Origin: Ignavibacteria bacterium
GTDB lineage: Bacteria > Bacteroidota > Ignavibacteria > UBA10030 > UBA6906
Assembly: GCA_027295705.1 (NCBI GenBank)
Contig: JAPUKJ010000040.1
Location: 1 to 41,129, forward strand
Direction: 5' to 3'
Length of the DNA stretch: 41,129 nt
A program made the translations under genes and the position numbers. The notes under the pieces were generated by a model. The model saw nothing but the letters and a program-made list of their open reading frames with translations. It searched no databases and was not told the DNA's origin. This document shows, in pieces, positions 20,983 to 40,236 of this stretch. Each line of letters begins with the position of its first letter. The stretch's first letter is position 1.

Positions 20983-23034
20983 ATGGAAACATTGACTATG
21001 CTTTCACCGGTTCTTGGTTTGTTGGGTCTCGTCGTGGCATTAGCCATCTATTTTTCAATTAAACGGCAACCAGCAGGTAGTGAATTGATGCGTGATCTTG
21101 CTGACCAGATACATGTTGGTGCGATGACGTTTCTGAAGCGTGAATACCTTGTTCTTGTCTTTTTTGTCGCCATCGTTGCAGTACTACTTGGTGTGTTTTT
21201 GCAGTGGCAAACAGCATTGGCATTCTTAAGTGGAGCGACTTGCTCCGTGCTTGCAGGTTTTTTCGGGATGCAGGCGGCGACCAAGGCGAATGTTCGCACT
21301 GCGCAGGCAGCGAAGGAAAAGGGGCAGGGAAAAGCGTTGCTCATAGCATTTAGCGGCGGAGCCGTCATGGGTGTGAGTGTGGCGAGTCTCGGTCTAATTG
21401 GCGTTGGAGTATTCTTCATGTATTTCGGCCAGCCTGAGACGGCGAAGATAATCAACGGTTTTGCGATGGGCGCAAGCTCGATCGCTCTCTTCGCGAGGGT
21501 CGGCGGTGGCATCTTCACGAAGGCGGCGGATGTTGGTGCCGATCTTGTGGGAAAGATTGAAGCTGGAATTCCTGAGGATGACCCGCGCAATCCTGGTGTT
21601 ATTGCAGACAACGTGGGTGACAACGTGGGTGACGTGGCTGGAATGGGCGCGGATATTTTTGCGTCGTACGTAGGGTCTATCATTGCGACCATAGCAATTG
21701 GCGCAACGTTGCTTCCCGAAGGACTGTCACTGTTGCAGGCAAATCCTGAAGGAGGAAGTCAAAGCATCGACATGAAGGCAATTCTCATGTCGCTTCCGAT
21801 CATCCTTGCAGTCATCGGTCTTGTCTCTTCTTTTGTTGGTATTGGTTCCATGAGAATACTGAAGCAATACTCCCCCGCTGCTGCATTGCGATACTCGACC
21901 TTCATTGCCGCAGGTCTGTTTCTGGCCGGCGCGTATTGGTATGTTGCGACTCATGATGTTAGCAACAATGTTTTCTGGGCGATATTTTTTGGCGCGATCG
22001 CTGGCATTCTCATTGGACTAATAACTGAGTATTACACATCTTCCCGGCCTGTCAGGCGAATTGCTTTTGCCAGTAAGACAGGCCCTGCTACTAACATCAT
22101 CGATGGTCTCGCGGTCGGATTGGAGTCGACTGCGCTTCCTGTGCTTGCGATCTGCGTCGCAATCTTTGTTGCAAATTATGTCGCGGGGTTGTATGGAATC
22201 GGCATTGCGGCTGTTGGGATGCTTGCCACAGTTGGTATCACAATGTCGGTTGATGCATATGGACCAATTGCCGACAATGCTGGTGGCATTTCCGAAATGT
22301 CCGGCCTGGGCCCCGAGGTACGAAAGATCACGGATGGTCTTGATGCGTTAGGAAACACGACGGCTGCAATCGGAAAGGGATTTGCCATCGGCTCAGCTGC
22401 GCTGACTGCCCTCGCCCTGTTTGCCGCCTACTCACAAGCGGTCTCAGCATCGAGTGGGATTCCATTACAGATTGCTATCACGGATCCATTGGTTTTTGTC
22501 GGGCTCTTTATCGGCGGCATTCTTCCGTTTTTCATAGCATCGTTGACAATGACTGCTGTTGGCCGCGCGGCTGGAAAGATGGTAGCTGAAATCCGTCGGC
22601 AGTTCCGTGAAATTCCTGGGCTGCTCGAAGGGAAACCAGGTGTGAAGCCCGATGCAGCGCGCTGCGTTGACATCTCAACCACCGCTGCTTTACGTGAGAT
22701 GATCCTCCCCGGAATCACTGCAGTAATTGCACCAGTGGCAATTGGATTCCTTCTTGGACCTTCGGCCCTGGGCGGTATGCTTGCCGGTGCTACGGTGACG
22801 GGAGTTCTCCTTGCACTGATGATGGCAAATGCAGGTGGCGCGTGGGATAACGCCAAGAAGGCGATCGAAAGAGGAGAGATTGAAGGAGAAAGGAAGGGCT
22901 CAGATGCTCACAAAGCCTCAGTGGTGGGCGATACGGTTGGAGATCCATTCAAGGATACATCTGGCCCGTCAATGAACATCCTCATTAAACTGATGTCCGT
23001 GGTTTCACTTGTTATCGCGCCGCTACTTGTATAG
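20983..23034 (+). CDS. hppA: Membrane-bound ion-translocating pyrophosphatase
   Basis: [95 protein letters not shown]. Confidence 0.96.
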
Positions 23035-23777: not shown

Positions 23778-24989
23778 TTGCATGTCGGGACTTTCATGTG
23801 TATCTTGATGAAGAATAGAAACACTTTGTGGAGCTTCATGTCGTCATCGCAAAAATATATTCTGATAGCAGTATCTATCGCGTTGTTTGTTGTTCTCTAC
23901 CACAGTGCATCCGGTTGGGGATGGGATTCGCACAGGTTCATAAATAGAAAGGCTGTCTATCATCTTCCAAATGAAATGATACTTTTTATTCAAGATAGCT
24001 CCTTCTTTGCGGCCCATTCCGTCGATGCAGACCAGCGACGGGATCCTGCCGACACTAGCCTGTATGGCGAGGCACCACGACATTACCTTGACATCGATGA
24101 TTATCCCGATTTTCACAGTCTAACCCGTGATTTGGATTCATTGATTGCTCGGTACGGATGGGATCGTGTGAAGGAGAATGGGACGAATCCATGGGCGACG
24201 GTCTGGAATCTGGACTCATTGGTGGATCAGCTTGCTCGCGGGGATTGGGCTGCCGCAAAACTTACAGCAAGTGACATTGGACATTATGTTGGCGATGCAC
24301 ACCAGCCGTTGCATTGCACAAGAAATTACAACGGACAGTACACGAACAACTATGGTATCCATTCCCGGTACGAGACTACAATGTTGAGTTCATCGTACTA
24401 CCTCTCGTCATTGCATATTGTTCCCGATACAGTTGTGTACATTGCAGATCCCGTGGAGTACGCTTTTGATTACATTATCCACTCCAATAGTCTGATTGAT
24501 ACCATCCTTCAGGGCGACGACTATGCAAAGGCCGTGTCCGGATGGAATGGCTCGGGAAATGCTCCGCCTGCTTATTATGCTGCCCTCTGGGACAGAACTC
24601 GTGCGATGACGCTTGATCAGATGCAGCGGGGCACCCAGGCTATTGCAAATTCGTGGTACTCCGCTTGGGTGGATGCCGGATTGATTGTCCCAACTAGTGT
24701 GGAACCTCCTCCTGAACCACGACCGAAAGATTTCAACCTCAGGCAAAACTATCCAAATCCGTTCAACCCTGGCACCACCATCTCATACCGCCTCGCTGTC
24801 GGAGGAACGGTGTCACTCAAAGTCTTCTCGATGACTGGGGAAGAAATAGCTACGTTGGTTCGCGAGGATCAATCCGCGGGCAATCATGCTTTGGCCTTTG
24901 ACGGTTCAGGACTCGCAAGCGGTGTCTATTTGTATGAGCTTAGGCTCGGCGGCTTTTCTCAAACAAAGAAGTTACTGCTTCTCAGGTAA
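23778..24989 (+). CDS. S1/P1 nuclease / zinc-dependent phospholipase C-like protein with T9SS type A sorting domain
   Basis: WGWDSHRFINRKAV, HYLDIDDYP, SDIGHYVGDAHQPLHCTRNYNG, GIHSRYE (candidate Zn ligands); C-terminal FNLRQNYPNPFNPGTTISY...SGVYLYELRLGGFSQTKKLLLLR. Start likely internal (near 23808 or 23838). Confidence 0.85.
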   Translation: MHVGTFMCILMKNRNTLWSFMSSSQKYILIAVSIALFVVLYHSASGWGWDSHRFINRKAVYHLPNEMILFIQDSSFFAAHSVDADQRRDPADTSLYGEAPRHYLDIDDYPDFHSLTRDLDSLIARYGWDRVKENGTNPWATVWNLDSLVDQLARGDWAAAKLTASDIGHYVGDAHQPLHCTRNYNGQYTNNYGIHSRYETTMLSSSYYLSSLHIVPDTVVYIADPVEYAFDYIIHSNSLIDTILQGDDYAKAVSGWNGSGNAPPAYYAALWDRTRAMTLDQMQRGTQAIANSWYSAWVDAGLIVPTSVEPPPEPRPKDFNLRQNYPNPFNPGTTISYRLAVGGTVSLKVFSMTGEEIATLVREDQSAGNHALAFDGSGLASGVYLYELRLGGFSQTKKLLLLR

Positions 24990-25407: not shown

Positions 25408-27645
25408 ATGGTAACGTCGAACAAGACATTTGACCATTTGCAGACCTTGACGCTTCCCGTTGAGGGAATGTCATGCGCGAGCTGCGTTCTTCGCGTTGAA
25501 AAGGCGCTGAAGAAAGTGAATGGTGTCTCCAGTGCCACCGTCAACCTTGCAAACGAGAAAGCCACGATTGAATTCGATACCGCAAAAGCGACGGTCGAAC
25601 AACTGCAGGGAGCTGTGGCGGAGTCAGGTTACACACTACGTATCCCGAAAAGCACTGAGGCCCCCGGTGAACAAGAGATGGAGCAGGCCAAAGGTGTAGC
25701 TGACAAACACCTCATGAGCGAGCTGATCTTAAGTGCAGCTTTTACACTTGCTATCATGGTCCTCAGCATACTGGGTATGGCTGATAGGTTGCCGTTCACG
25801 TTTGATACAATGAACAAGATTCTCTTGGTATTGGCGACGCCTGTGATGTTCATTGCGGGCCGGAGGTTCTTCATGGGTGCCTGGGCAACGGCGAAGCATT
25901 TTACTGCCGACATGAACACGTTAATTGCAGTTGGGACCGGTGCAGCATACGCGTACAGCGTGACAGCGGTACTCTTCCCGGTAGTAGTTGGGACTGCCGG
26001 TGCAACGCCTCATGTCTATTTTGACACGGCCGTTGTGATCATCACATTGATATTACTGGGCAGGTATCTGGAGGCGACTGCCAAAAGCAGAACCTCAGAT
26101 GCAATCAAGAAACTGCTAGGGTTGCAGCCTAAGACAGCGCGTGTGGTGCGCGACGGTAGTGACACAGATGTTTCAATCGATGACGTGCTCTTGGAGGATA
26201 TCGTTATTGTGAGACCGGGAGAAAAAATTCCCGTTGACGGTATCATTACAAAAGGCTTGACAAGTATTGATGAGTCAATGGTGACAGGGGAAAGTCTTCC
26301 TGTTGAAAAGAGTGTAGGTCACAAGGTTGTAGGCGGGACAATCAACAAGAACGGCAGTATCGAATTTCGTGCTACGGCAGTCGGTAAGAACACCGTGCTT
26401 GCTCAGATCGTGAAGCTTGTGGAAGAGGCACAAGGCTCGAAAGCGCCGATACAGAGGCTTGCGGACAGGATTGCTTCCGTGTTTGTGCCCATTGTTATCG
26501 GTATTGCGCTACTGACGTTTTCGCTTTGGTTTTTCGTTGGTCAAAGCAGCTTCACGTATGCGATGGTCAATTTTATTGCTGTGCTTATTATTGCGTGTCC
26601 TTGTGCTCTTGGACTTGCAACACCGACGGCAATTATGGTTGGAACCGGAGTCGGAGCCAGGCTTGGTGTCCTCATCAAGAACGCAGAGAGCCTGGAGCGG
26701 ACACACAAAATTCAGACAGTCATACTGGACAAGACCGGGACTATCACTGAGGGGAAGCCTTCAGTGACGGACGTGATGACATTCAGTGGTTTTGAGCAAA
26801 CGCGGGTTTTGCAAGCGGTGGCGTCGGTGGAGAAACAATCGGAACATCCTCTCGGCCAGGCAATAGTGGAATATGCTGTTAAGAAGAACATCCCCTTGGC
26901 TCCCACAGATGCTTTCCAGTTATCGACAGGTCTCGGAGTAACGGCTGTGGTTGATGGGAACACTGTGGCCGCAGGTAACATGTCTTTTATGAAGGAACAT
27001 GTTTCCTATCTTGATGAACATGGAGAAGTTGCCGACCGTTTCTCTAACGAAGGGAAGACTCCGATCTTTATCGCTATCAATGGGAAGGTTGCTGGTCTCA
27101 TTGCCATCGCAGACACGATTAAAGCTACTGCGCCGGAAGCGATCAAGAAATTGCAGGCAATGGGCCTTGAAGTCATAATGCTCACGGGGGACAACGAACG
27201 GACTGCAAAGGCCATTGCGGTGCAAGCAGGTCTTGACCGATTGATTTCGCAAGTGAAGCCTGACGAGAAGTTACACCATGTGAAAGTCATCCAGGGTGAA
27301 GGGAAGTTCGTTGCGATGGCAGGCGATGGAATCAATGACGCTCCCGCACTCGCTCAGGCTGATGTTGGCATTGCAATGGGGACCGGTACCGATATTGCCA
27401 TGGAGGCAGCAGATATCACACTCATGAAAGGTGATTTAAGGAGCATTGTGCACGCAATACAACTATCTTCACGGACTCTGGGCACGATAAGACAGAATCT
27501 CTTTTGGGCATTCATTTACAATGTTGTCGGAATACCGGTCGCAGCTCTGGGACTGCTCAACCCGATGATCGCGGCTGCTGCCATGGCATTTAGTTCAGTA
27601 AGCGTGGTAAGCAATTCGTTGAGGTTGAAAAGATTCAGGGGGTAA
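25408..27645 (+). CDS. copA: Copper-translocating P-type ATPase
   Basis: GMSCASC HMA domain, [31 protein letters not shown] motif [20 protein letters not shown]. Confidence 0.95.
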
Positions 27646-30386: not shown

Positions 30387-30998
30387 GTGACTCCGGTAAT
30401 GGTGCGCTCGCATATGTGTCGGTTGGTCCCCCTTATGTTAGTCCCCCTTGCAATGGCTATTGCACAAGAACGATCTTCAGTTTCCCCCGCCTTTTCAATA
30501 GCTCCATGTGCCTCCTACAACATTTACAGCGAAAGCGTTTCTATGCATTCCGCCATGAGCTATGGCGCGGCGATTACAATGCACCTGACCTCCAGAATTG
30601 GTCTGGAATTCAATGCCCAATTTAGCAAATCGCAGGGGGATTTCGACGTTATCGGAGGCACTGCATTTCTGGGAATCAACACTGCGGCTTACCAGCTACA
30701 ATTCCAGTATTTGGTTTTCAGTCTTGATGAATCCTTTGATGTAGTTGGGACAGCAGGAATCGGAATGGTCAGGTTTACGACAGATGCCCACACAGTTTCC
30801 CTTGGGGCGCTCGGAAAAGTCCTCGTTCCTGAACGCAAGGAGACCCGAAACCAATATACTGTTGGCCTCATTCTTTTTAGGCAACTGGCTTCTAGGATTT
30901 CGCTGCGGCTTGGGCTTGAGGCGAGGTTCATTACACCTTTGTCATCGTTGAAAGCTAGTTACACTATTTCCGGAGGGGTTGCAATTGGGGTGTTTTAG
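30387..30998 (+). CDS. Predicted outer-membrane protein, unknown
   Basis: Signal-peptide-like N-terminus (LVPLAMAIAQ), beta-rich composition, last residue Phe. Confidence 0.6.
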   Translation: MTPVMVRSHMCRLVPLMLVPLAMAIAQERSSVSPAFSIAPCASYNIYSESVSMHSAMSYGAAITMHLTSRIGLEFNAQFSKSQGDFDVIGGTAFLGINTAAYQLQFQYLVFSLDESFDVVGTAGIGMVRFTTDAHTVSLGALGKVLVPERKETRNQYTVGLILFRQLASRISLRLGLEARFITPLSSLKASYTISGGVAIGVF

Positions 30999-31560
30999 CA
31001 AATTTCAAATTGCTCTTTTGATCTTGGTTGGCTTCGGACTGACTACCTCAACGCTGTCGGCTCAGGAAAAAACCAGTTCAACCGATGTTCCTGTTCAGCG
31101 GGGCCCGCTGATCGATCTCAATAAGGGAGTTTCGTTTGAGATTTCCCCCCACACAGGTCTTATGGGACGAAGCGGCACGTTCGGTCTGCGACTTTCGATG
31201 AACTACAGTTCGTTCAATCTCGAACTTGCCGGGGAGCAGGTGATCGGTAAGACCGCCAATCTTTACCCAATATCGGTGAATGCAATTCTGAACCTTGCGA
31301 CAAGAGGACGACTTATTCCCTACGGCGCTGTAGGAGGTGGTCTCTTCATGACCATTCCAGTTAACACCATAGGTGACGAAACCGTCTCCACGCTCGGCAT
31401 TAATTTCGGCGGTGGGGCTAGGTACTATCTAACAAAGCATTTCGGGTTTCGAGTTGAGGCAAAGCAATACATCACAAGCGTGAGCAGCGAAAGGGAGTTG
31501 AAAGATGAGCTTCTGTTTTTTCAGGAAATCAGTCTCGGTGTCACATTCATGTTTCGCTAA
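30979..31560 (+). CDS. Predicted outer-membrane beta-barrel protein, unknown
   Basis: TTG start overlapping the previous ORF by 20 nt; signal peptide LSAQ; C-terminus LGVTFMFR. Confidence 0.62.
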   Translation: MQLGCFSKFQIALLILVGFGLTTSTLSAQEKTSSTDVPVQRGPLIDLNKGVSFEISPHTGLMGRSGTFGLRLSMNYSSFNLELAGEQVIGKTANLYPISVNAILNLATRGRLIPYGAVGGGLFMTIPVNTIGDETVSTLGINFGGGARYYLTKHFGFRVEAKQYITSVSSERELKDELLFFQEISLGVTFMFR

Positions 31561-31582
31561 CATCATCTAATGGGATTTACAA

Positions 31583-32146
31583 ATGACGAATCGTTGGAGA
31601 TACGCTTCGATTTTGGTCTTTGTTGCTTTGGTGATGAGTGCACGATTACCAGCACAGGGCCAATTACGCTATCAAAGCAGCATAAGCTTGTCGGCTGGTG
31701 CCTACGCAGCGAGCGGCTTCGGTACTAACCACTATTTAGGAGCGCGATATAACTATTTCTTTTTGAAAGGTAGATATTTTGTTGAAGCTGCAATTGGTTT
31801 CAGCAGTCTCAAATCGGAAGTACTGGAGAGTATCTCCAGGTCGCAGATCTTCGAATCAGAGCGATTGTACTCGTACGAATTTGTCTTTGCGTATGATCCG
31901 AGTCCCTCTGGGAATTTTCCATACGTGGTAGGTGGAGTTGCTGGGATTAATCAGGGTGGTCAGACTAGCTTCGCAGGGGTCATCGGACTTGGCAAAAGAA
32001 TACCGCTCGGTGGTTTTCTAGGTACCGATCAGCTTGGTCTTCGCTACGACGTGCGGGACCAGATATTCTCCCAGAAGATTAATAACGCTGACGAATTCAC
32101 TGCGCATAACATAGTTTTCTCCCTTGGAATGCAGTTTTATTTCTGA
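31583..32146 (+). CDS. Predicted outer-membrane beta-barrel protein, unknown
   Basis: Signal peptide ...RLPAQG; glycine/aromatic-rich strands; C-terminus SLGMQFYF. Confidence 0.62.
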   Translation: MTNRWRYASILVFVALVMSARLPAQGQLRYQSSISLSAGAYAASGFGTNHYLGARYNYFFLKGRYFVEAAIGFSSLKSEVLESISRSQIFESERLYSYEFVFAYDPSPSGNFPYVVGGVAGINQGGQTSFAGVIGLGKRIPLGGFLGTDQLGLRYDVRDQIFSQKINNADEFTAHNIVFSLGMQFYF

Positions 32147-32200
32147 TGAGCATCGTACGCTGATGAGGTTAAGAATTATTCATTTGAGAGGTGAGGTCCT

Positions 32201-34438
32201 ATGAACGCATTGTGGATTGTTGTGCAACGCGTCCCATACGTATTGCCATTTGTGCTGATTGGTTTAGTGCTTGCTTCATGTGGTCCTTCTCCCCCCGATG
32301 ACATACTCCAGAAGTCAGGCCAGGCAGCCGTAGTATTTGTGAAAGAGAATAGCCGCCACAATAATCGCAGCCGGGTATCGAGAAGTAACAGGGATGAATA
32401 CTATCCAGGGAGTGATCTGCTCTTCCTCAGCCCGATTTCCTCGCAAGGCGAGCTAACGAACCTTACGGCGCAGTACACTACGCGTAATCAAGCGGATCCG
32501 GAAGACTACGGTGCTGCTGCAGATCCAGAAGTCTCGTACGACGGCAAGAAAATCCTATTTGCCATGAAGGAAAACCGGAGCCGTCTGTGGCACATTTATG
32601 AAATGAATATCGATGGGAGTGGATTGGTTCAATTGACCGATCAAGCAAGTGGCGACGACATGGATCCGACGTATCTGCCCAATGGACAGATAATGTTTAC
32701 GTCGACGCGATCGGGGATCGTTGATGAGTACAATCGGCGACATTCGCCGCTGCTGCACGTTGGCGACAGGGGTTCGGATGGACGACTTATCAATATCAGG
32801 CAGATTTCCTTCAATCAAAGCCACGATACGAATCCCATGGTTCACTCCAGCGGGAAAGTATTTTACAGTCGCTGGGAACACTTGGGCAGTCCGAACAAGT
32901 TTCCGCTCTTTGTTATCAACCCTGATGGAACACGTCCGTTCGTCCTGTATGGGAATCATTCTCCTCGGGAGAGCGGGAGCCGCGCGTTCCTTGAGGCCCG
33001 TGAGCTTTCAGACGGAGGGATAGTATGCTCAATCATGGAGCGAGAATCTGAGTTTGAAGGGGGTGCAATTGCCATTATTGACATTTCCAAATCGGATGAT
33101 AACCTAGCATTCATAACTCCTTCTACAGTTCCATTTAACAATAGAAATCAATTTTCCAGTGCCCTGTTCAAGTCACCTCATCCGATTATCGACAAAAATG
33201 CTTCTGCTGACCGTCGGGAGAAAATCCTCGTTGCAATGTCACCAATACCGATCAATACGGGTGCAGGGGATGACGAAGTTGACTATGGCCTGTATGTGAT
33301 GGACAAGGATGGCAGTAATCTGCGCTTGATCTATAACGACCCGGAATACAATGAGTATGATCCAGTGCCAGTTATGGCGAGAGAGAAACTGCCGGGCGGC
33401 GTACCTCAGGTGATTCCCATGGATCCAAACGTCGCTTCTGCAATGGCGTCTGGTGTAACGACTGGGATGTTCTTCGACGGTAATGTATATGACCGTGCCA
33501 CGAACGATGGTCAAACCCGTCCCGCCGCGACCTTTGTCAATGCTGACGGTTCTGTTGGCCAGGCAAAGTACCTTAGGGTTTTGGAGGCGATTCCACTTCC
33601 TCAAGATCGTAACAAAAGGGGAGGCCCAATTGGCGATACAAATTTTGAAAAGCAGCGAGTTGTGGGTTATGCACCTATCCGCCCAGATGGATCATTCACT
33701 GTGGAGGTACCAGCGAACCGGTCGCTTCACATGCAAACACTGGATGAGAACGGAATGATGCTCGTGAACCAGTTAACATGGGTACAGGTGATGCCGGGGG
33801 AGAAAAGACTCTGTACTGGATGTCACGATTCGCACGATCGAGATAGGATTATTAATGATCTCGAAATTCTGGCTACCCAGCAGGTCCGTAATAAAGCTAC
33901 AGGGTCGACCTACGATGCCGGATTTCACAATGCCGATAATGTAATGAGCCATCCAGCAGCAAGAACAGACACAGTGGATTTCTTTGACAGATACCGCCCA
34001 AACCGGACAAACACAGTACAAGCGATCTTTGATGCACGCTGCATTACGTGTCATGGCACGTCGTTGCCTGCAGGAGGATTGCGATTAGAAAATGTTGCCT
34101 TTGATAAGGTTCCGCCGGGCTCTGGCATGAGCGACGAAAGTTCGGTATATGATTCCTTAACTCGGGACGCCCGCTATCGAACGGCGAATGGAAGTTCGTT
34201 GGACTACGTGACTCGAAATGGTGCGCGTCGCAGCCCATTGATGTGGGTAATGTACAACCGGCAGCTTAATGATCCTGAAAATACTGATTATCGGCCATTG
34301 AGCTACGACCATACGCAATTATGGACAAAGGATCAGTACAACCGGCTCGATCCATTTCTTCCTGGGAATCGAGATCTGTTAACGATTATTGAATGGCTTG
34401 ATGCAGGTACTCAATATTCAAATACCACTGATGAGTAG
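32201..34438 (+). CDS. TolB/PD40-type beta-propeller lipoprotein, hydrazine synthase alpha subunit-like, with two CxxCH heme motifs
   Basis: Lipobox VLASC; WHIYEMNIDGSGLVQLT and DPTYLPNGQIMFTSTRSG propeller repeats; RLCTGCHDSHDR and ARCITCHGTSLPAGGLRL. Confidence 0.85.
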   Translation: MNALWIVVQRVPYVLPFVLIGLVLASCGPSPPDDILQKSGQAAVVFVKENSRHNNRSRVSRSNRDEYYPGSDLLFLSPISSQGELTNLTAQYTTRNQADPEDYGAAADPEVSYDGKKILFAMKENRSRLWHIYEMNIDGSGLVQLTDQASGDDMDPTYLPNGQIMFTSTRSGIVDEYNRRHSPLLHVGDRGSDGRLINIRQISFNQSHDTNPMVHSSGKVFYSRWEHLGSPNKFPLFVINPDGTRPFVLYGNHSPRESGSRAFLEARELSDGGIVCSIMERESEFEGGAIAIIDISKSDDNLAFITPSTVPFNNRNQFSSALFKSPHPIIDKNASADRREKILVAMSPIPINTGAGDDEVDYGLYVMDKDGSNLRLIYNDPEYNEYDPVPVMAREKLPGGVPQVIPMDPNVASAMASGVTTGMFFDGNVYDRATNDGQTRPAATFVNADGSVGQAKYLRVLEAIPLPQDRNKRGGPIGDTNFEKQRVVGYAPIRPDGSFTVEVPANRSLHMQTLDENGMMLVNQLTWVQVMPGEKRLCTGCHDSHDRDRIINDLEILATQQVRNKATGSTYDAGFHNADNVMSHPAARTDTVDFFDRYRPNRTNTVQAIFDARCITCHGTSLPAGGLRLENVAFDKVPPGSGMSDESSVYDSLTRDARYRTANGSSLDYVTRNGARRSPLMWVMYNRQLNDPENTDYRPLSYDHTQLWTKDQYNRLDPFLPGNRDLLTIIEWLDAGTQYSNTTDE

Positions 34439-34548
34439 CTAGCCTAGCACGTTATCTCGTGATGGTAGATATGTTCTGTGTGGGGTTATTTGATAAGGTG
34501 AACAACCAGATTCTTAGCTTCCATCAACAGTTAAGAACGGAGGTAGCT

Positions 34549-34599
34549 ATGACTTCAACAAAATCAGTTAGATCTGTGAGGCTAACGTGGGCGCCATAG
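34549..34599 (+). other. Candidate 16-codon leader-type small ORF (MTSTKSVRSVRLTWAP)
   Basis: GGAGGT Shine-Dalgarno 4 nt before the ATG, in the long intergenic region before the lipoprotein gene. Confidence 0.3.
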
Positions 34600-34802
34600 T
34601 TTTCTGGCTCCAGGCGTTGCTGAAAAGTGGAACTGAAAAACAACGATTTACCTATCACATAGGATTGGTTTTCAGAGTTAGAAAAAATTTAATCGAACCT
34701 GGTGCACGCAGAACGCGAAGGGCATAGAAGTGCAAAAAATTATTTTGCTCACATTTTACATCAAGCACCAGATTCATTAACCTCACCAAAGGAGGTCTTG
34801 AG

Positions 34803-35561
34803 ATGAAAAATTTACATCACCTTATGTATATTGCCTTATTTTTTTCCGGGCTCATTCTGATTACTGGGTGTAACGAGATGGAGGCTCCAATTCCAGCAGA
34901 TGCTGGCCAACAGTCACTTCTGAAGTCAGGCGACGACGATGACGGCGATGATGACGGCGGGGCTCAGATCCCCTTCGACGAGGTGGAGGTGTTCTTCGAG
35001 TTTAACACCACGGATAACGATCTGGGCTTTCAGTTATTCCTCGATGCAGAAGGCTGGAAGCAGGTCAATGTTTTCGGCCCTGACGGCAAGATCATCAACT
35101 TCAAGGCTAAAAGAGCTTTGAAGGAGCTTGGCATTACCGAGCTGCGCTTCGAGAGCTCCGAGCCGTCGCCAGCTGAGGTCCTGGCCTTGTTCCCACCCGG
35201 GGACTATAAATTCAGGGGCAGGACGGTCGAGGGAGACAAGCTGGTGGGCACGGGGGAGCTGTCGCACGCCTTTCTGGCCGCGCCCTCCATCTTCGTCAAC
35301 GGCGACCCGATCAACGGCGATCCGGTGGACCCTGACAGCACTGTCATTGGATGGGACGCCCCAGGAGCTGAGCGCGTCCAGGTCATCGTCGGGAACGAAG
35401 ACCTCGGCCATTTCTTCGACGTCATTGTCTCGCCTGAGACCACGAGCCTGAATGTTCCGCCGCAGTTCCTCCAGCCAGCCACGGAGTACAAGGCCGAGGT
35501 CCTGGCGATATCGGCAAACGGAAACAGGACCATCACGGAGGGCACTTTCGTCACGGAGTAG
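34803..35561 (+). CDS. Lipoprotein with Asp-rich linker and C-terminal FN3-like domain
   Basis: Lipobox LILITGC; linker SGDDDDGDDDGG; C-terminal IGWDAPGAERVQVIV...LQPATEYKAEVLAISANGNRTITEGTFVTE. Strong SD (AAAGGAGGT). Confidence 0.75.
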   Translation: MKNLHHLMYIALFFSGLILITGCNEMEAPIPADAGQQSLLKSGDDDDGDDDGGAQIPFDEVEVFFEFNTTDNDLGFQLFLDAEGWKQVNVFGPDGKIINFKAKRALKELGITELRFESSEPSPAEVLALFPPGDYKFRGRTVEGDKLVGTGELSHAFLAAPSIFVNGDPINGDPVDPDSTVIGWDAPGAERVQVIVGNEDLGHFFDVIVSPETTSLNVPPQFLQPATEYKAEVLAISANGNRTITEGTFVTE

Positions 35562-35571
35562 TGCTTGACTG

Positions 35572-35748
35572 ATGACGATGATGAGGGTAATAATGGTGGG
35601 AAGCAACTGGCAGAAACAGAAGCACAGCGTTCGCTGGGATGGAAAGAACAACCAAGGAAATACCGTATCAAGTGGGTTTTATGTGTACAAGTTGCAGGCG
35701 AAAGGCCTCGTGGCAACAAAGAAGTTGGTATTTACGAAGCGAGTATGA
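35572..35748 (+). pseudogene. Orphan FlgD-like / T9SS C-terminal domain fragment
   Basis: 58-aa frame below the ORF-track cutoff: ...GSNWQKQKHSVRWDGKNNQGNTVSSGFYVYKLQAKGLVATKKLVFTKRV*, a typical C-terminal tail of a T9SS cargo protein with no N-terminal cargo domain. Confidence 0.7.
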
Positions 35749-35849
35749 AAGAACTTGGGGATCTCTAGGATCCACGGATATGATGTGTACTAGAATAATT
35801 TGCGCGTTAGGTGCACATTCATCTTTTGTCGGTGAGGGCACAAGAAGTT

Positions 35850-36362
35850 ATGAGTAAAGTCCGGCTGCGATACATCATTTGCCTCCTTCTTTTGCCCGGC
35901 TGGTCGGTTGCGTCGGCCCTTGGGCCTGAGTGGTTCGGGGGGAAAGCGCCTGACTTTACGCTTGAGACGATTGACGGCCGTGCTAAGCTCTCCCTGAGTG
36001 ACCTGCGCGGACAGGTTGTTGTAGTCGATTTCTGGGCAACTTGGTGTGCGCCGTGCAAACGTTACCTGCCTCGGCTCGCGGAACTCGAGATAGCCCACGA
36101 CGGCGTGAGAGTTTTGGCAGTGAATATTGACGACGAGAGGCGAAACGCTGTTGAATTCCTGAAACGCAACCGCATACACCTCACAGCATTGTTTGATGAA
36201 AAGAAAGAAGTTGTCGAAGAATACGGTGTTTCTGCAATGCCTTCAGCTTTTGTCATCGATAAGCGTGGAGTTGTTCGTTTTGTACACACCGGTTATACAG
36301 ACAACGAAGTGGAGCAAATAAAAAATGAAGTCGAAGATCTGCTACAGGAGGCTACAATATGA
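35850..36362 (+). CDS. TlpA-family thioredoxin-like disulfide reductase (exported)
   Basis: Signal peptide; APDFTLETIDG; VVVDFWATWCAPCKRYLPRL; SAMPSAFVIDKRGVVRFVHTGY. The ORF track opens at 35811 but the likely start is 35850. Confidence 0.92.
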   Translation: MSKVRLRYIICLLLLPGWSVASALGPEWFGGKAPDFTLETIDGRAKLSLSDLRGQVVVVDFWATWCAPCKRYLPRLAELEIAHDGVRVLAVNIDDERRNAVEFLKRNRIHLTALFDEKKEVVEEYGVSAMPSAFVIDKRGVVRFVHTGYTDNEVEQIKNEVEDLLQEATI

Positions 36363-36583
36363 GATCAGTTCTTAGCGTATGCGTTGCTGTAGTCGCTGTT
36401 GGCTTAGCAGTGCAGGGCTGTGCAACAGTGAAACCCTATGAACGCGAGAAACTAGCCGATCCGATTATGGAGCGCCAAAATCAATTTTCGAAGCAGACGC
36501 TTGAACAGAAATTCTTCTCGACACGCGAGGGGAGCATCGGAGGTGCAAGTGGAATTGGCGGTGGATGCGGCTGTGCCAAGTAG
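36359..36583 (+). CDS. DUF4266-type small lipoprotein
   Basis: Signal peptide with Cys (AVQGC), TVKPYEREKLADPIM core, C-terminal FSTREGSIGGASGIGGGCGCAK. ATGA overlap with the thioredoxin gene. Confidence 0.82.
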   Translation: MRSVLSVCVAVVAVGLAVQGCATVKPYEREKLADPIMERQNQFSKQTLEQKFFSTREGSIGGASGIGGGCGCAK

Positions 36584-36624
36584 TTCAACGTCGGTTAGTC
36601 TGGTTGGTTCCTAGGCGAGAATCT

Positions 36625-37764
36625 ATGCGCCGAAATCTAAGATGGATTTCAATAATGCTCCTGCCTATGATGCTATTTTGGTCAACCATGCCAGCGATTG
36701 CAGGGGGCGACCAAATGGGATTTACAACCTATTTTTTCTCTGACAGCGGGGAGAATAGTGTCATTACGAGTTCGTTCAACCTTGCTAAGAAGCTCCTGCA
36801 GCAAACGGTATTCTTGATTGACATTGAGCTTGATAATGTGACCGTGCCGCCGGTTACCGCAGTCACCGGTGCTACAAGGCCACAGCGTAGGAAAAGCGAG
36901 CCTTTTGAAAAGAGCCGAGGACAAGTAATTGTTGGGATCGAACAAGGCATCGGCCCGAACACGACAATAGCAGGAAACTTCTATCGCAGTCAGGAAGTCG
37001 ACTACACGTCAAGCGCTGTCGTCGGCACTTTCAGTCAGGATCTTTTCCAGAAGAACACGACAATCACACTTCGCGGACAGTATAGTGCCGATCGGGTCGG
37101 GAAGATCACGGAGGTCGGAGACATTCTCAACAAAAAAAAGAAAGTGTACACAGGTGCACTCAACATCAGCCAACTCCTCTCGCCGACAACGGTACTGGAT
37201 ATGAGCTATGATTTCGTGTACCTCAAGGGGTTCTTGAGTGATCCGTACCGTTTGGTGAAGGTGCATGATCTGAATGGGGCAGTCACGACGACGGATGAAA
37301 TGCATCCGCGCAAGCGCACACGTCATGCAGGTACAGGAAAGATCAGCCAGTTAATTCCTACGATCAAGGCGTCACTTATTGGGAGCTACAGATACTATTT
37401 CGACACGTGGAGGGTGCGCTCGCACACTGCTGAGGTCAAGCTGAACAAGTACATCGTGAAGGATCTCATTCTTGGGATTAATTACCGTTACTATACCCAG
37501 ACTGCGGCAAAGTTCTACCAAGACAAATATGTGGGTCAGGAATTCCTCAATCACGGATTAAGAACCGCGGATTATAAGCTGCAAAAGTTCAGCTCTAACA
37601 ATTTTGGCTTCAGTTTGACGTATTTGCTTCGCGGGCTAGGCAAGGCCTACCCTGACCTTGAATTTCTGCAGAACTCGTCTATCGAGGTCATGTACTTCAG
37701 GTATTTCAATGATTTAGATTTCACGGCGGATATTATTCAAATGGGTATCAAGTTTTCCATATAG
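36625..37764 (+). CDS. DUF3570-type outer-membrane protein
   Basis: Signal peptide ...MPAIAGGDQMGFTTYFFSDSGENSVITSSFNLAKKL; beta-rich with aromatic-rich C-terminal strands; directly follows the DUF4266 gene. The ORF track opens at 36565 but ATG 36625 fits the signal peptide. Confidence 0.82.
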   Translation: MRRNLRWISIMLLPMMLFWSTMPAIAGGDQMGFTTYFFSDSGENSVITSSFNLAKKLLQQTVFLIDIELDNVTVPPVTAVTGATRPQRRKSEPFEKSRGQVIVGIEQGIGPNTTIAGNFYRSQEVDYTSSAVVGTFSQDLFQKNTTITLRGQYSADRVGKITEVGDILNKKKKVYTGALNISQLLSPTTVLDMSYDFVYLKGFLSDPYRLVKVHDLNGAVTTTDEMHPRKRTRHAGTGKISQLIPTIKASLIGSYRYYFDTWRVRSHTAEVKLNKYIVKDLILGINYRYYTQTAAKFYQDKYVGQEFLNHGLRTADYKLQKFSSNNFGFSLTYLLRGLGKAYPDLEFLQNSSIEVMYFRYFNDLDFTADIIQMGIKFSI

Positions 37765-37806
37765 GCATGTTTATTTTTAACCCTTTGTACATGTGGGAGA
37801 GAGACA

Positions 37807-40236
37807 ATGAAACAATTACTGAAATTAGCCTTGGTGTTCCCCGTGCTCGTTGGGTCGCTTAGTTATAGTGGTGGATCTCAAAGACCGGAATATCTGGGTG
37901 CAAACTGGGCGCGTGTTTCAGACAAGGTGCAGATTGAGCTCATCGTAGATGAGTTACGTGCTGTTGCTGAGGGACGATTAAGTGGGAGGATAGTGCGGAA
38001 TCACGTTGCCCCGGATTTGGACCTTTCATCAATATTTAAGGTTAGCAGTACCTTACCTGCTGCGACCCGATCGGCCCATATTTATGCAGGCGCATCTGAA
38101 GTGCTGGTAAACGGGAAAACTGCATCGATAGAAACAGGCGCTGGTGAACGATTATTGTTTGAGAAGATCAACAACACCTGGAGAGTAACTGGCGGATCGA
38201 TGAGGGTACAGCAAGCCTTGGTCAGTCCGGAAAATGTAACATCGCTTACTATGGGCGACGGCACCTCCAAGGGGAAAACGTTCGTTCAAACTCCTATGAG
38301 TCGTGAGCATGGCATTGGCCGTTTGTCGCGCAGCGTTACGCGTGCAAGGATCGATCGCGCGCTCTTCAGCACACCTGAGAAGACCGCATCGTATTACTAT
38401 GCGCACTACATGGAATCGGCCCCCTATGTTTCGGCGACGTACATTCAATTCGTCACTGATCCGGACTGGAATCGGATCGTGTACGGCAATATGAATCACT
38501 GGATCAAGTCCTACGATAACGTGCTCGGTCCTTCGGCGATTGTGACTGATGCTGAAGGCAGAGTATTTGTTGGAGAAACCGGCAACAAGCGAGTTACTGT
38601 CCTTCGTATCGTTGGTGATGGGAGTGATGCTCAGCTTCAACCGCTGTATTACATTCCTAACATCACTAACCCGAGTGACATCGCTTTGAACGACAATGGC
38701 ACCCCGCTTGACGTCAGCGATGACCTCCTGTATGTTGCGGACGCTTCGCAAAACAAGATCCTTAAATACCTCCTAGGACCCTCTGCCGCAACACTTGTCA
38801 AAACGTTTGATGGTTTTGATACACCAACCTGTGTTCTCGTTGGGAAATGGAATGGGGCTAGCAGCGGCCTCCTCTATGTTGTGGACCAAGTTGCCAAACG
38901 TATCCGATTGTTCAACGACACTGGATCAGAGCTTTCTCTCATCAAAGAAGTGAGAGGCGATTACAGTCAGTACTTCAAATCGATCAAGGCTGATCACTTT
39001 GGGAATATCTATGTCGTTGACAACGTTAACTCACAGGTTTTCAAATTCACGGCAGCTTTTGAATTGCTTGACTCCGAGGGTGGTGATGATGTGTTCGCAG
39101 CTCTTGGTAATGTCGATATTCCATTCGGCAAGATAGTGATCGATGGCCAGGGTACATATTGGGCCGGGTTTGACCAGATGTTTGCGGTGGAGCGTTGGGC
39201 GGAGGCCAGCGGTGCGCAGCGTCGGACGCTCGGTCTTAGCCTGAAGAACATCGAGTTTCGTTCTGACCGCGATGTCAGCACCGTAGACAATCAGTTTATC
39301 TTGACCGACTTCGGAGACGTCAAAGTGCGGGTGTATGATAGTAGAAACAGTTTAGTCCGAACGTTGAATTCAGCGTGGATGATCTCTGGCTGGAAGAATA
39401 TTACGTGGGATCGGCGCAACGATGCAGGTGTGCAGGTTCCTGCCGATACGTATCGTTACGAAATTGCAGCAACTTCCGCGTACAGAGAAGAACCGACTGT
39501 GTCGCTCACCCAGTTCTATCTGCCGATGTATTATTGGGAAAACAGTGGGAGCAGTAAGCAATCGGATGATGCGCACCTTGTCCAGGGTAGCGCCCTTGCA
39601 TGGGGGACAGAGCCATCGCAGTTGGCGAACGAACATGCGACATCGGTGCAGTACAGATTCAAAGGATTGAATCCTGAGAGTGAGTATGAAGTGTCCGCAG
39701 AATACGTTGCGAATGATGGCGTTCGTCGTATGCAAGACATGACGGTGAGTGGTCAGCAGCTTCACGAAGCGATGATGGTTTCCAACACGCCGACGCAGAC
39801 AGGATTCATCGCGTTGCCGAAGGAGACATTCGCAACTGGAGAAGTGGTCATTAGCATCAACGCACGTGCAGAGGGATCAGCAATTGTTTCCCAGTTGTGG
39901 TTCAAGGAGACCGGTGTAGGGTTTAGTCTGCAACAGGTGAACGAGTCTGTTCCTACTTCATACGCGCTGGAACAGAACTATCCGAATCCATTCAATCCCT
40001 CTACCGTGATCCGGTATTCAATACCAATAGATGGCCCGGTGGCTCTAAAGGTGTATGACATTACAGGACGCGAGGTTGTAACGCTGGTGGATGAGCATAA
40101 ATCTGCCGGAACGTATAAAGCGCGTTTTGATATTGGGATAGCAACAGGCGGCAGAAACCTTGCATCAGGTGTTTACTTCTACCGACTAACAGCAGGAGAC
40201 TTTTCGGAGACGAAGAAGCTACTATTGCTCAAGTAA
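37807..40236 (+). CDS. Secreted NHL/six-bladed beta-propeller protein with FlgD-like Ig region and T9SS type A sorting domain
   Basis: AIVTDAEGRVFVGETGNKRVTVL and LLYVADASQNKILKYL repeats; ITWDRRNDAGVQVPADTYRYEI; C-terminal ALEQNYPNPFNPSTVIRYSI...SGVYFYRLTAGDFSETKKLLLLK. Confidence 0.87.
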   Translation: MKQLLKLALVFPVLVGSLSYSGGSQRPEYLGANWARVSDKVQIELIVDELRAVAEGRLSGRIVRNHVAPDLDLSSIFKVSSTLPAATRSAHIYAGASEVLVNGKTASIETGAGERLLFEKINNTWRVTGGSMRVQQALVSPENVTSLTMGDGTSKGKTFVQTPMSREHGIGRLSRSVTRARIDRALFSTPEKTASYYYAHYMESAPYVSATYIQFVTDPDWNRIVYGNMNHWIKSYDNVLGPSAIVTDAEGRVFVGETGNKRVTVLRIVGDGSDAQLQPLYYIPNITNPSDIALNDNGTPLDVSDDLLYVADASQNKILKYLLGPSAATLVKTFDGFDTPTCVLVGKWNGASSGLLYVVDQVAKRIRLFNDTGSELSLIKEVRGDYSQYFKSIKADHFGNIYVVDNVNSQVFKFTAAFELLDSEGGDDVFAALGNVDIPFGKIVIDGQGTYWAGFDQMFAVERWAEASGAQRRTLGLSLKNIEFRSDRDVSTVDNQFILTDFGDVKVRVYDSRNSLVRTLNSAWMISGWKNITWDRRNDAGVQVPADTYRYEIAATSAYREEPTVSLTQFYLPMYYWENSGSSKQSDDAHLVQGSALAWGTEPSQLANEHATSVQYRFKGLNPESEYEVSAEYVANDGVRRMQDMTVSGQQLHEAMMVSNTPTQTGFIALPKETFATGEVVISINARAEGSAIVSQLWFKETGVGFSLQQVNESVPTSYALEQNYPNPFNPSTVIRYSIPIDGPVALKVYDITGREVVTLVDEHKSAGTYKARFDIGIATGGRNLASGVYFYRLTAGDFSETKKLLLLK

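Follow-up and report, generated by a model that had tools for sequence, protein, structure and literature searches.

A DUF4266/DUF3570 module with a predicted flavinylated barrel lies in a conserved operon with a hydrazine synthase alpha-like dihaem lipoprotein

Introduction

The closest described relative of the system reported here was characterised by Meheust et al. (2021, eLife; PMC8238504), who found gene clusters encoding ApbE, a DUF3570 protein, a thioredoxin-like protein and a DUF4266 protein, with or without DsbD. On co-expression, ApbE flavinylated the DUF3570 protein of Chlorobium luteolum at two [ST]GA[ST] sites, and it is for this organism only that covalent FMN on DUF3570 was shown. 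The same study suggested redox cycling of the DUF4266 CXC motif and pointed out that the direction of electron flow could be reversed; the words 'barrel' and 'porin' are both absent from its main text. It is the one paper in the open-licence literature searched that mentions DUF3570 or DUF4266. A second point of reference is hydrazine synthase alpha (HZS-alpha; Kuenenia, structure 5c2v), for which other homologues outside anammox bacteria have been reported to lack Tyr591 and have been described with no proven function (PMC12758564).

Here, we analyse a stretch of 41,129 nucleotides from an Ignavibacteria bacterium (contig JAPUKJ010000040.1 of assembly GCA_027295705.1), referred to as the window. 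It carries a conserved operon that joins two groups of proteins without an assigned function, the flavinylated DUF3570 proteins, known since 2021, and the non-anammox HZS-alpha homologues. Since this operon also occurs in cultivable Rubrivivax and Methylibium strains, both questions are open to genetics. The core system is known; what is new is the single flavin site, the remote ApbE and the conserved operon with an HZS-alpha-like dihaem lipoprotein. A search of the open-licence literature retrieved no paper describing a flavinylated barrel module in combination with an HZS-alpha homologue.

Results

The three-gene core

A sequence-only reading of the window had proposed a compact module of three forward-strand genes between 35850 and 37764, and both the open reading frames and the sequence bear out the adjacent genes and their ATGA junction:

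35850..36362, + strand, exported TlpA/ResA-like thioredoxin with a CAPC motif (Pfam AhpC-TSA 1.9e-27, Redoxin 2.3e-24)
36359..36583, + strand, DUF4266 lipoprotein of 74 aa (PF14086, E 6.7e-17, 62.6 bits; cut-off 27)
36625..37764, + strand, DUF3570 16-stranded outer-membrane barrel, predicted to be flavinylated (PF12094, E 1.2e-37, 130 bits; cut-off 25)
36865..36876, + strand, predicted flavinylation motif T81-G-A-T84 (TGAT) in the loop between strands 3 and 4, with FMN expected on T84 (motif class from PMC8238504)

The TlpA-like frame starts with the ATG at 35850, contains the active-site stretch WATWCAPCK and has ResA as its best NCBIfam match (3.8e-29, below the cut-off). It is joined to the DUF4266 gene by an overlap of the ATG at 36359-36361 with the TGA at 36360-36362, preceded by AGGAGG. 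In the Pfam searches, all three genes scored far above the cut-offs, and the second and third fell in the families that had been proposed for them. A PDB sequence search found no solved structure for DUF3570 or DUF4266, and promoter and terminator scans, whose hits were about as numerous as in shuffled sequence, were left unused.

Like the system of Meheust et al. (PMC8238504), the window has a DUF3570 protein with a flavin motif, a DUF4266 protein with a C-terminal CXC and an adjacent gene for a thioredoxin-like protein, and its genome contains ApbE and DsbD. In contrast to that system, it has one flavinylation site instead of two, its apbE and dsbD lie outside the cluster, and the module is part of a larger set of genes that includes a dihaem HZS-alpha-like lipoprotein and small barrels. 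The proposal of an outer-membrane redox system with a recurring association of DUF4266, DUF3570 and ApbE was right, and all of it save the outer-membrane placement had already been published (PMC8238504). The window thioredoxin is of the TlpA/ResA type (WASWC/WATWC), unlike those of most Bacteroidota loci, which have GSDWC. Across the loci compared, the GSDWC type was seen in most Bacteroidota modules (L043-L055), and the WASWC/WATWC type in the window clade and in Proteobacteria (L058-L079).

The DUF3570 barrel and its flavin site

An AlphaFold model of the DUF3570 protein, built with 39 sequences, shows 16 strands forming a closed barrel with a mean pLDDT of 88.8. A fold search with Foldseek gave 368 PDB matches at E<=0.001, and the matches listed are outer-membrane barrels, with modest TM-scores. 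With closed strands in the model and a signal peptide, judged by eye to be present, the protein is predicted to be an outer-membrane beta-barrel. The flavin motif lies within a 19-residue loop (75-93), where model confidence is low (pLDDT <50 at 78-84). Of the 27 conserved positions that could be assigned to a side, 26 are on the side of the flavin loop (expected share 0.59, simple binomial p 1.5e-5). In barrels with an even number of strands, the N-terminus is usually periplasmic; if this applies to DUF3570, the flavin-loop side is extracellular, and the loop and the conserved residues are thus probably at the extracellular end of the modelled barrel.

In an alignment of DUF3570 proteins from 42 loci, two [ST]xA[ST] sites, separated by about 8-24 residues, are present in most sequences. 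In the window protein, the first is gone (LDNVTVPPV) and only the second remains (TGAT, residues 81-84). All 10 single-site DUF3570 proteins analysed form one clade of Ignavibacteria/Chlorobi, Calditrichota and Fibrobacteria (support 100/99), in which the first site is lost in 10 of 10 members, namely the window, L036, L037, L065, four Calditrichota and two Fibrobacteria. Flavinylation of the window protein is a prediction from its motif and from the flavinylated homologue. In many DUF3570 proteins encoded next to apbE (L039-L055, L067-L079), SSAS, TSAS, SNAS or TTAS replace [ST]GA[ST], hinting that ApbE may tolerate a residue other than Gly at the second position.

The DUF4266 lipoprotein

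The DUF4266 protein has a lipobox Cys at C21, and M37, E57 and the C-terminal GGCGC are invariant, the latter being identical in 41 of 41 homologues. Its earlier description as Cys-rich is accurate in a narrow sense, as the cysteines are limited to that of the lipobox, one within the signal peptide and those of the GGCGC tail. The suggestion that this lipoprotein is itself the modified substrate is not supported: the demonstrated modification sits on DUF3570 (PMC8238504), which led us to reject DUF4266 as the modified protein, and the corresponding motif is present in the window barrel. The DUF4266 tail is an invariant CXC that contains no flavinylation motif, and a role as a redox shuttle is the better reading; with about 54 mature residues, a lipid anchor and an invariant GGCGC end, the protein would suit a flexible shuttle arm.

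ApbE and DsbD in the window genome

The window genome has one DUF4266 and one DUF3570 gene. As the sequence-only reading had noted, no apbE is visible beside the module; this is true of the whole window region and of each of the 10 single-site loci. The proposed search of the remaining genome was positive and located a single ApbE on contig C186, next to genes that were judged by eye to be NusG_II-like and Gx-transporter-like; the single DsbD is encoded on C93, outside the cluster. Three ApbE-substrate families, FMN_bind, NqrB/RnfD and DUF2271, were not found in the genome, whose assembly is 92.6% complete, so that such absences are not absolute; DUF3570 is consequently the only recognised type of ApbE substrate there. 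Among clade genomes without an adjacent apbE, 10 of 11 encode ApbE, compared with 9 of 20 relatives without the module (one-sided Fisher p 0.014). In the genome G304, a MAG in which the module lies on a 3.5-kb contig, ApbE was not seen.

A larger conserved operon

Neighbourhoods were compared by clustering and tblastn. DUF4266 and DUF3570 are adjacent in every locus with enough sequence, the exception being L064, at a contig edge, which confirms the recurring association that had been predicted. The boundaries originally given to the module were too narrow: the conserved unit extends from about 30387 to 40236, and a cytochrome-like gene (32201-34438) and small barrel genes, all upstream of the thioredoxin gene and part of this unit, had been overlooked:

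30387..30998, + strand, small outer-membrane-barrel-like protein of about 200 aa (g11), recurring upstream of the module in Calditrichota (L060-L063)
30979..31560, + strand, small beta-barrel (g5; OMP_b-brl 6.2e-09; OMP_myx_plus 1.3e-07, below the cut-off)
31583..32146, + strand, small beta-barrel, TIGR04565 OMP_myx_plus-like (g4; 2.4e-11, below the cut-off)
32201..34438, + strand, dihaem lipoprotein of 745 residues, homologue of hydrazine synthase alpha (HZS_alpha 7.3e-22)
34803..35561, + strand, fn3-like lipoprotein frame, an apparent insertion, missing between the HZS-alpha-like gene and TlpA/DUF4266 in relatives
37807..40236, + strand, secreted NHL-propeller and FlgD-Ig protein with a T9SS sorting tail (g6; domain matches)

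The g11 protein has no Pfam family above the cut-off, and the g4 homologue in L079 reaches OMP_myx_plus above the cut-off (7.8e-34). The fn3-like frame is probably outside the conserved unit. It is followed by a FlgD-type tail (35572-35748) that is out of frame with it, which suggests that a surface-protein gene, now frameshifted or decayed, was inserted at 34803-35748, between the HZS-alpha-like gene and TlpA. The g6 gene is also found downstream of DUF3570 in L036, L037, L060-L063 and L072, and SprA is present in the window genome.

Of 24 non-Bacteroidota loci, 22 contain the trio of HZS-alpha-like, g5 and g4 genes, compared with 0 of 18 in Bacteroidota; the non-Bacteroidota loci were mostly fetched by similarity to the window DUF4266 and are therefore not a random sample. 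All 13 proteobacterial loci have the trio, as do 9 of the 11 in the window clade; it is missing from L059, and L072 is a truncated contig. The conserved operon spans Pseudomonadota, Ignavibacteria/Chlorobi, Calditrichota and Fibrobacteria. Where there is enough sequence, the usual proteobacterial order is ApbE, HZS-alpha-like, g5, g4, TlpA, DUF4266 and DUF3570, with apbE on the other side of DUF3570 in L077 and L078. TlpA is not beside DUF4266 in the close relatives L036, L037 and L065, nor in L038 and L044; the first three nevertheless retain the genes for the HZS-alpha-like protein, DUF4266 and DUF3570.

Proteobacteria have further genes after the module, namely two TPR genes, one for TolQ/ExbB, a pair for ExbD/TolR and a TonB-like gene (L079 9308-16168, L099; L067, L068, L069, L074, L076; L101). 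In 6 of 8 genomes, an ExbD pair is found immediately beyond the locus of the module, and in L101 the motor cluster is elsewhere on the same contig. This motor cluster resembles the Agl-Glt 'core complex of unknown function' (Luciano et al. 2011, PMC3169522).

The HZS-alpha-like dihaem lipoprotein

As in hydrazine synthase alpha (5c2v) and its non-anammox homologues (PMC12758564), the protein encoded at 32201..34438 consists of a beta-propeller, an HZS_alpha middle domain and a C-terminal haem domain, and it has both CXXCH sites of hydrazine synthase alpha. It matches 5c2v_A in sequence (E 2.6e-25), and 5c2v_A is also the top fold match of its model (E 3.8e-30, TM 0.61), which is of moderate confidence (pLDDT 66). 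Lipobox C27 and the two CXXCH motifs are invariant in 16 homologues. Unlike hydrazine synthase alpha, it is a predicted lipoprotein, shares an operon with a predicted flavinylated barrel and has no Tyr at the counterpart of Tyr591, the haem alpha-I ligand four residues beyond CXXCH: the window reads CTGCHDSHD, and none of the 18 homologues listed has Tyr there. The position corresponding to the zinc ligand Cys303 was not confidently aligned. Among the neighbours scanned, no gene for a beta or gamma subunit or a cytochrome c peroxidase-like protein was recognised. The missing catalytic Tyr591, together with the lack of recognised beta/gamma genes, rules out an identity as hydrazine synthase, and we do not use this name for the protein. 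The NHL protein at 37807-40236 was rejected as an equivalent of HZS-beta, its PDB sequence matches being generic NHL propellers and FlgD only. Strong HZS_alpha matches were found in 3 of 297 sampled genomes of the phylum, and in all three the gene sits in this locus.

Discussion

On balance, we consider it probable, with considerable reservation, that the module acts as an electron relay at the outer membrane, and we propose the following hypothetical sequence in which (i) the single DsbD of the genome recharges the periplasmic TlpA-like thiol reductase; (ii) TlpA reduces the Cys-Gly-Cys at the C-terminus of DUF4266, a lipid-anchored protein; (iii) DUF4266 extends its flexible tail to the FMN bound covalently to the DUF3570 barrel, a flavin that an ApbE encoded elsewhere would have attached at T84 in the periplasm prior to insertion of the barrel; (iv) the FMN would be held at a barrel mouth with long loops and conserved residues, probably on the extracellular side; and (v) the dihaem HZS-alpha-like lipoprotein, located at the outer membrane with the two small barrels, would be the next carrier or the terminal oxidoreductase in this lineage. 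We infer the order of the carriers, the extracellular FMN and the role of the dihaem protein, and electron transfer as such is a prediction. The thiol arm is assigned to DUF4266 rather than to the cytochrome because most Bacteroidota loci have thioredoxin, DUF4266, DUF3570 and ApbE without an HZS-alpha-like gene. The five loci without TlpA beside DUF4266 imply that the thiol donor may come from elsewhere or be dispensable.

If the FMN is truly extracellular, periplasmic thiol transfer would need the DUF4266 tail to thread the barrel, which is speculation. A stronger form of the relay, a flavin-based conduit across the outer membrane with FMN at the extracellular mouth, the Cys-Gly-Cys tail threading the barrel and the HZS-alpha-like dihaem protein as a dedicated redox partner, is put forward tentatively, as a possibility we regard as doubtful. 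It invites comparison with porin-cytochrome conduits such as MtrCAB, with which the window module shares the joint encoding of redox cofactors and an outer-membrane barrel. In contrast to MtrCAB, the module has no decahaem cytochrome; it is predicted to use FMN bound covalently to the barrel itself, with thiols as the likely electron donor. Should the conduit reading be true, it would for the first time place hydrazine synthase alpha homologues from outside anammox bacteria in a functional context; should the flavin lie at the outer face, the barrel would be a flavin-based counterpart of the haem conduits across the outer membrane.

The relay may also run in the opposite direction, as raised in PMC8238504 itself: the dihaem protein or the barrel flavin would oxidise an extracellular or periplasmic substrate and pass electrons inward via FMN and DUF4266 to the thiol system or the cytochrome pool. 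The HZS-alpha fold, being that of an oxidoreductase, is consistent with this, whereas the presence of dsbD inside the operon in the Bacteroidota loci L041 and L042 argues against it. As a rule, DsbD and proteins of the TlpA type send reducing equivalents outward, and we regard inward flow as unlikely.

The neighbouring gene with its two CXXCH motifs and the ResA match of TlpA would also fit a dedicated apocytochrome reductase (ResA/CcmG-like) serving haem attachment to the HZS-alpha-like protein, with DUF4266/DUF3570 as a separate unit. This is improbable, given that a thioredoxin accompanies DUF4266, DUF3570 and ApbE without an HZS-alpha-like gene in 16 of 18 Bacteroidota loci and that the dihaem gene persists in the absence of an adjacent TlpA in L036, L037 and L065. 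We give equally little credence to a surface-structure machine, related to secretion, polymers or motility, in which the redox parts would be regulatory. The TPR, TolQ/ExbB, two ExbD and TonB-like genes directly after the module in Proteobacteria (e.g. L079), together a TolQ-TolR-TolR-TonB and TPR cluster reminiscent of the Agl-Glt core complex, and the OMP_myx_plus-like g4 and g5 speak for it; no such motor genes were seen around the module in the loci of the window, Calditrichota or Fibrobacteria, and Bacteroidota clusters are without any of these features. Least credible is a cofactor or maturation system acting on the DUF4266 lipoprotein, as first suggested by the thiol reductase adjoining a tiny Cys-rich lipoprotein, since the modification demonstrated for the family is on DUF3570 (PMC8238504) and the DUF4266 tail offers CXC in place of a flavinylation motif.

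Beyond the module, the window encodes a membrane H+-pyrophosphatase (20983-23034) and a heavy-metal P-type ATPase with an HMA domain (25408-27645), both upstream of the operon, and an S1/P1-nuclease-like protein with a T9SS sorting tail (23778-24989).
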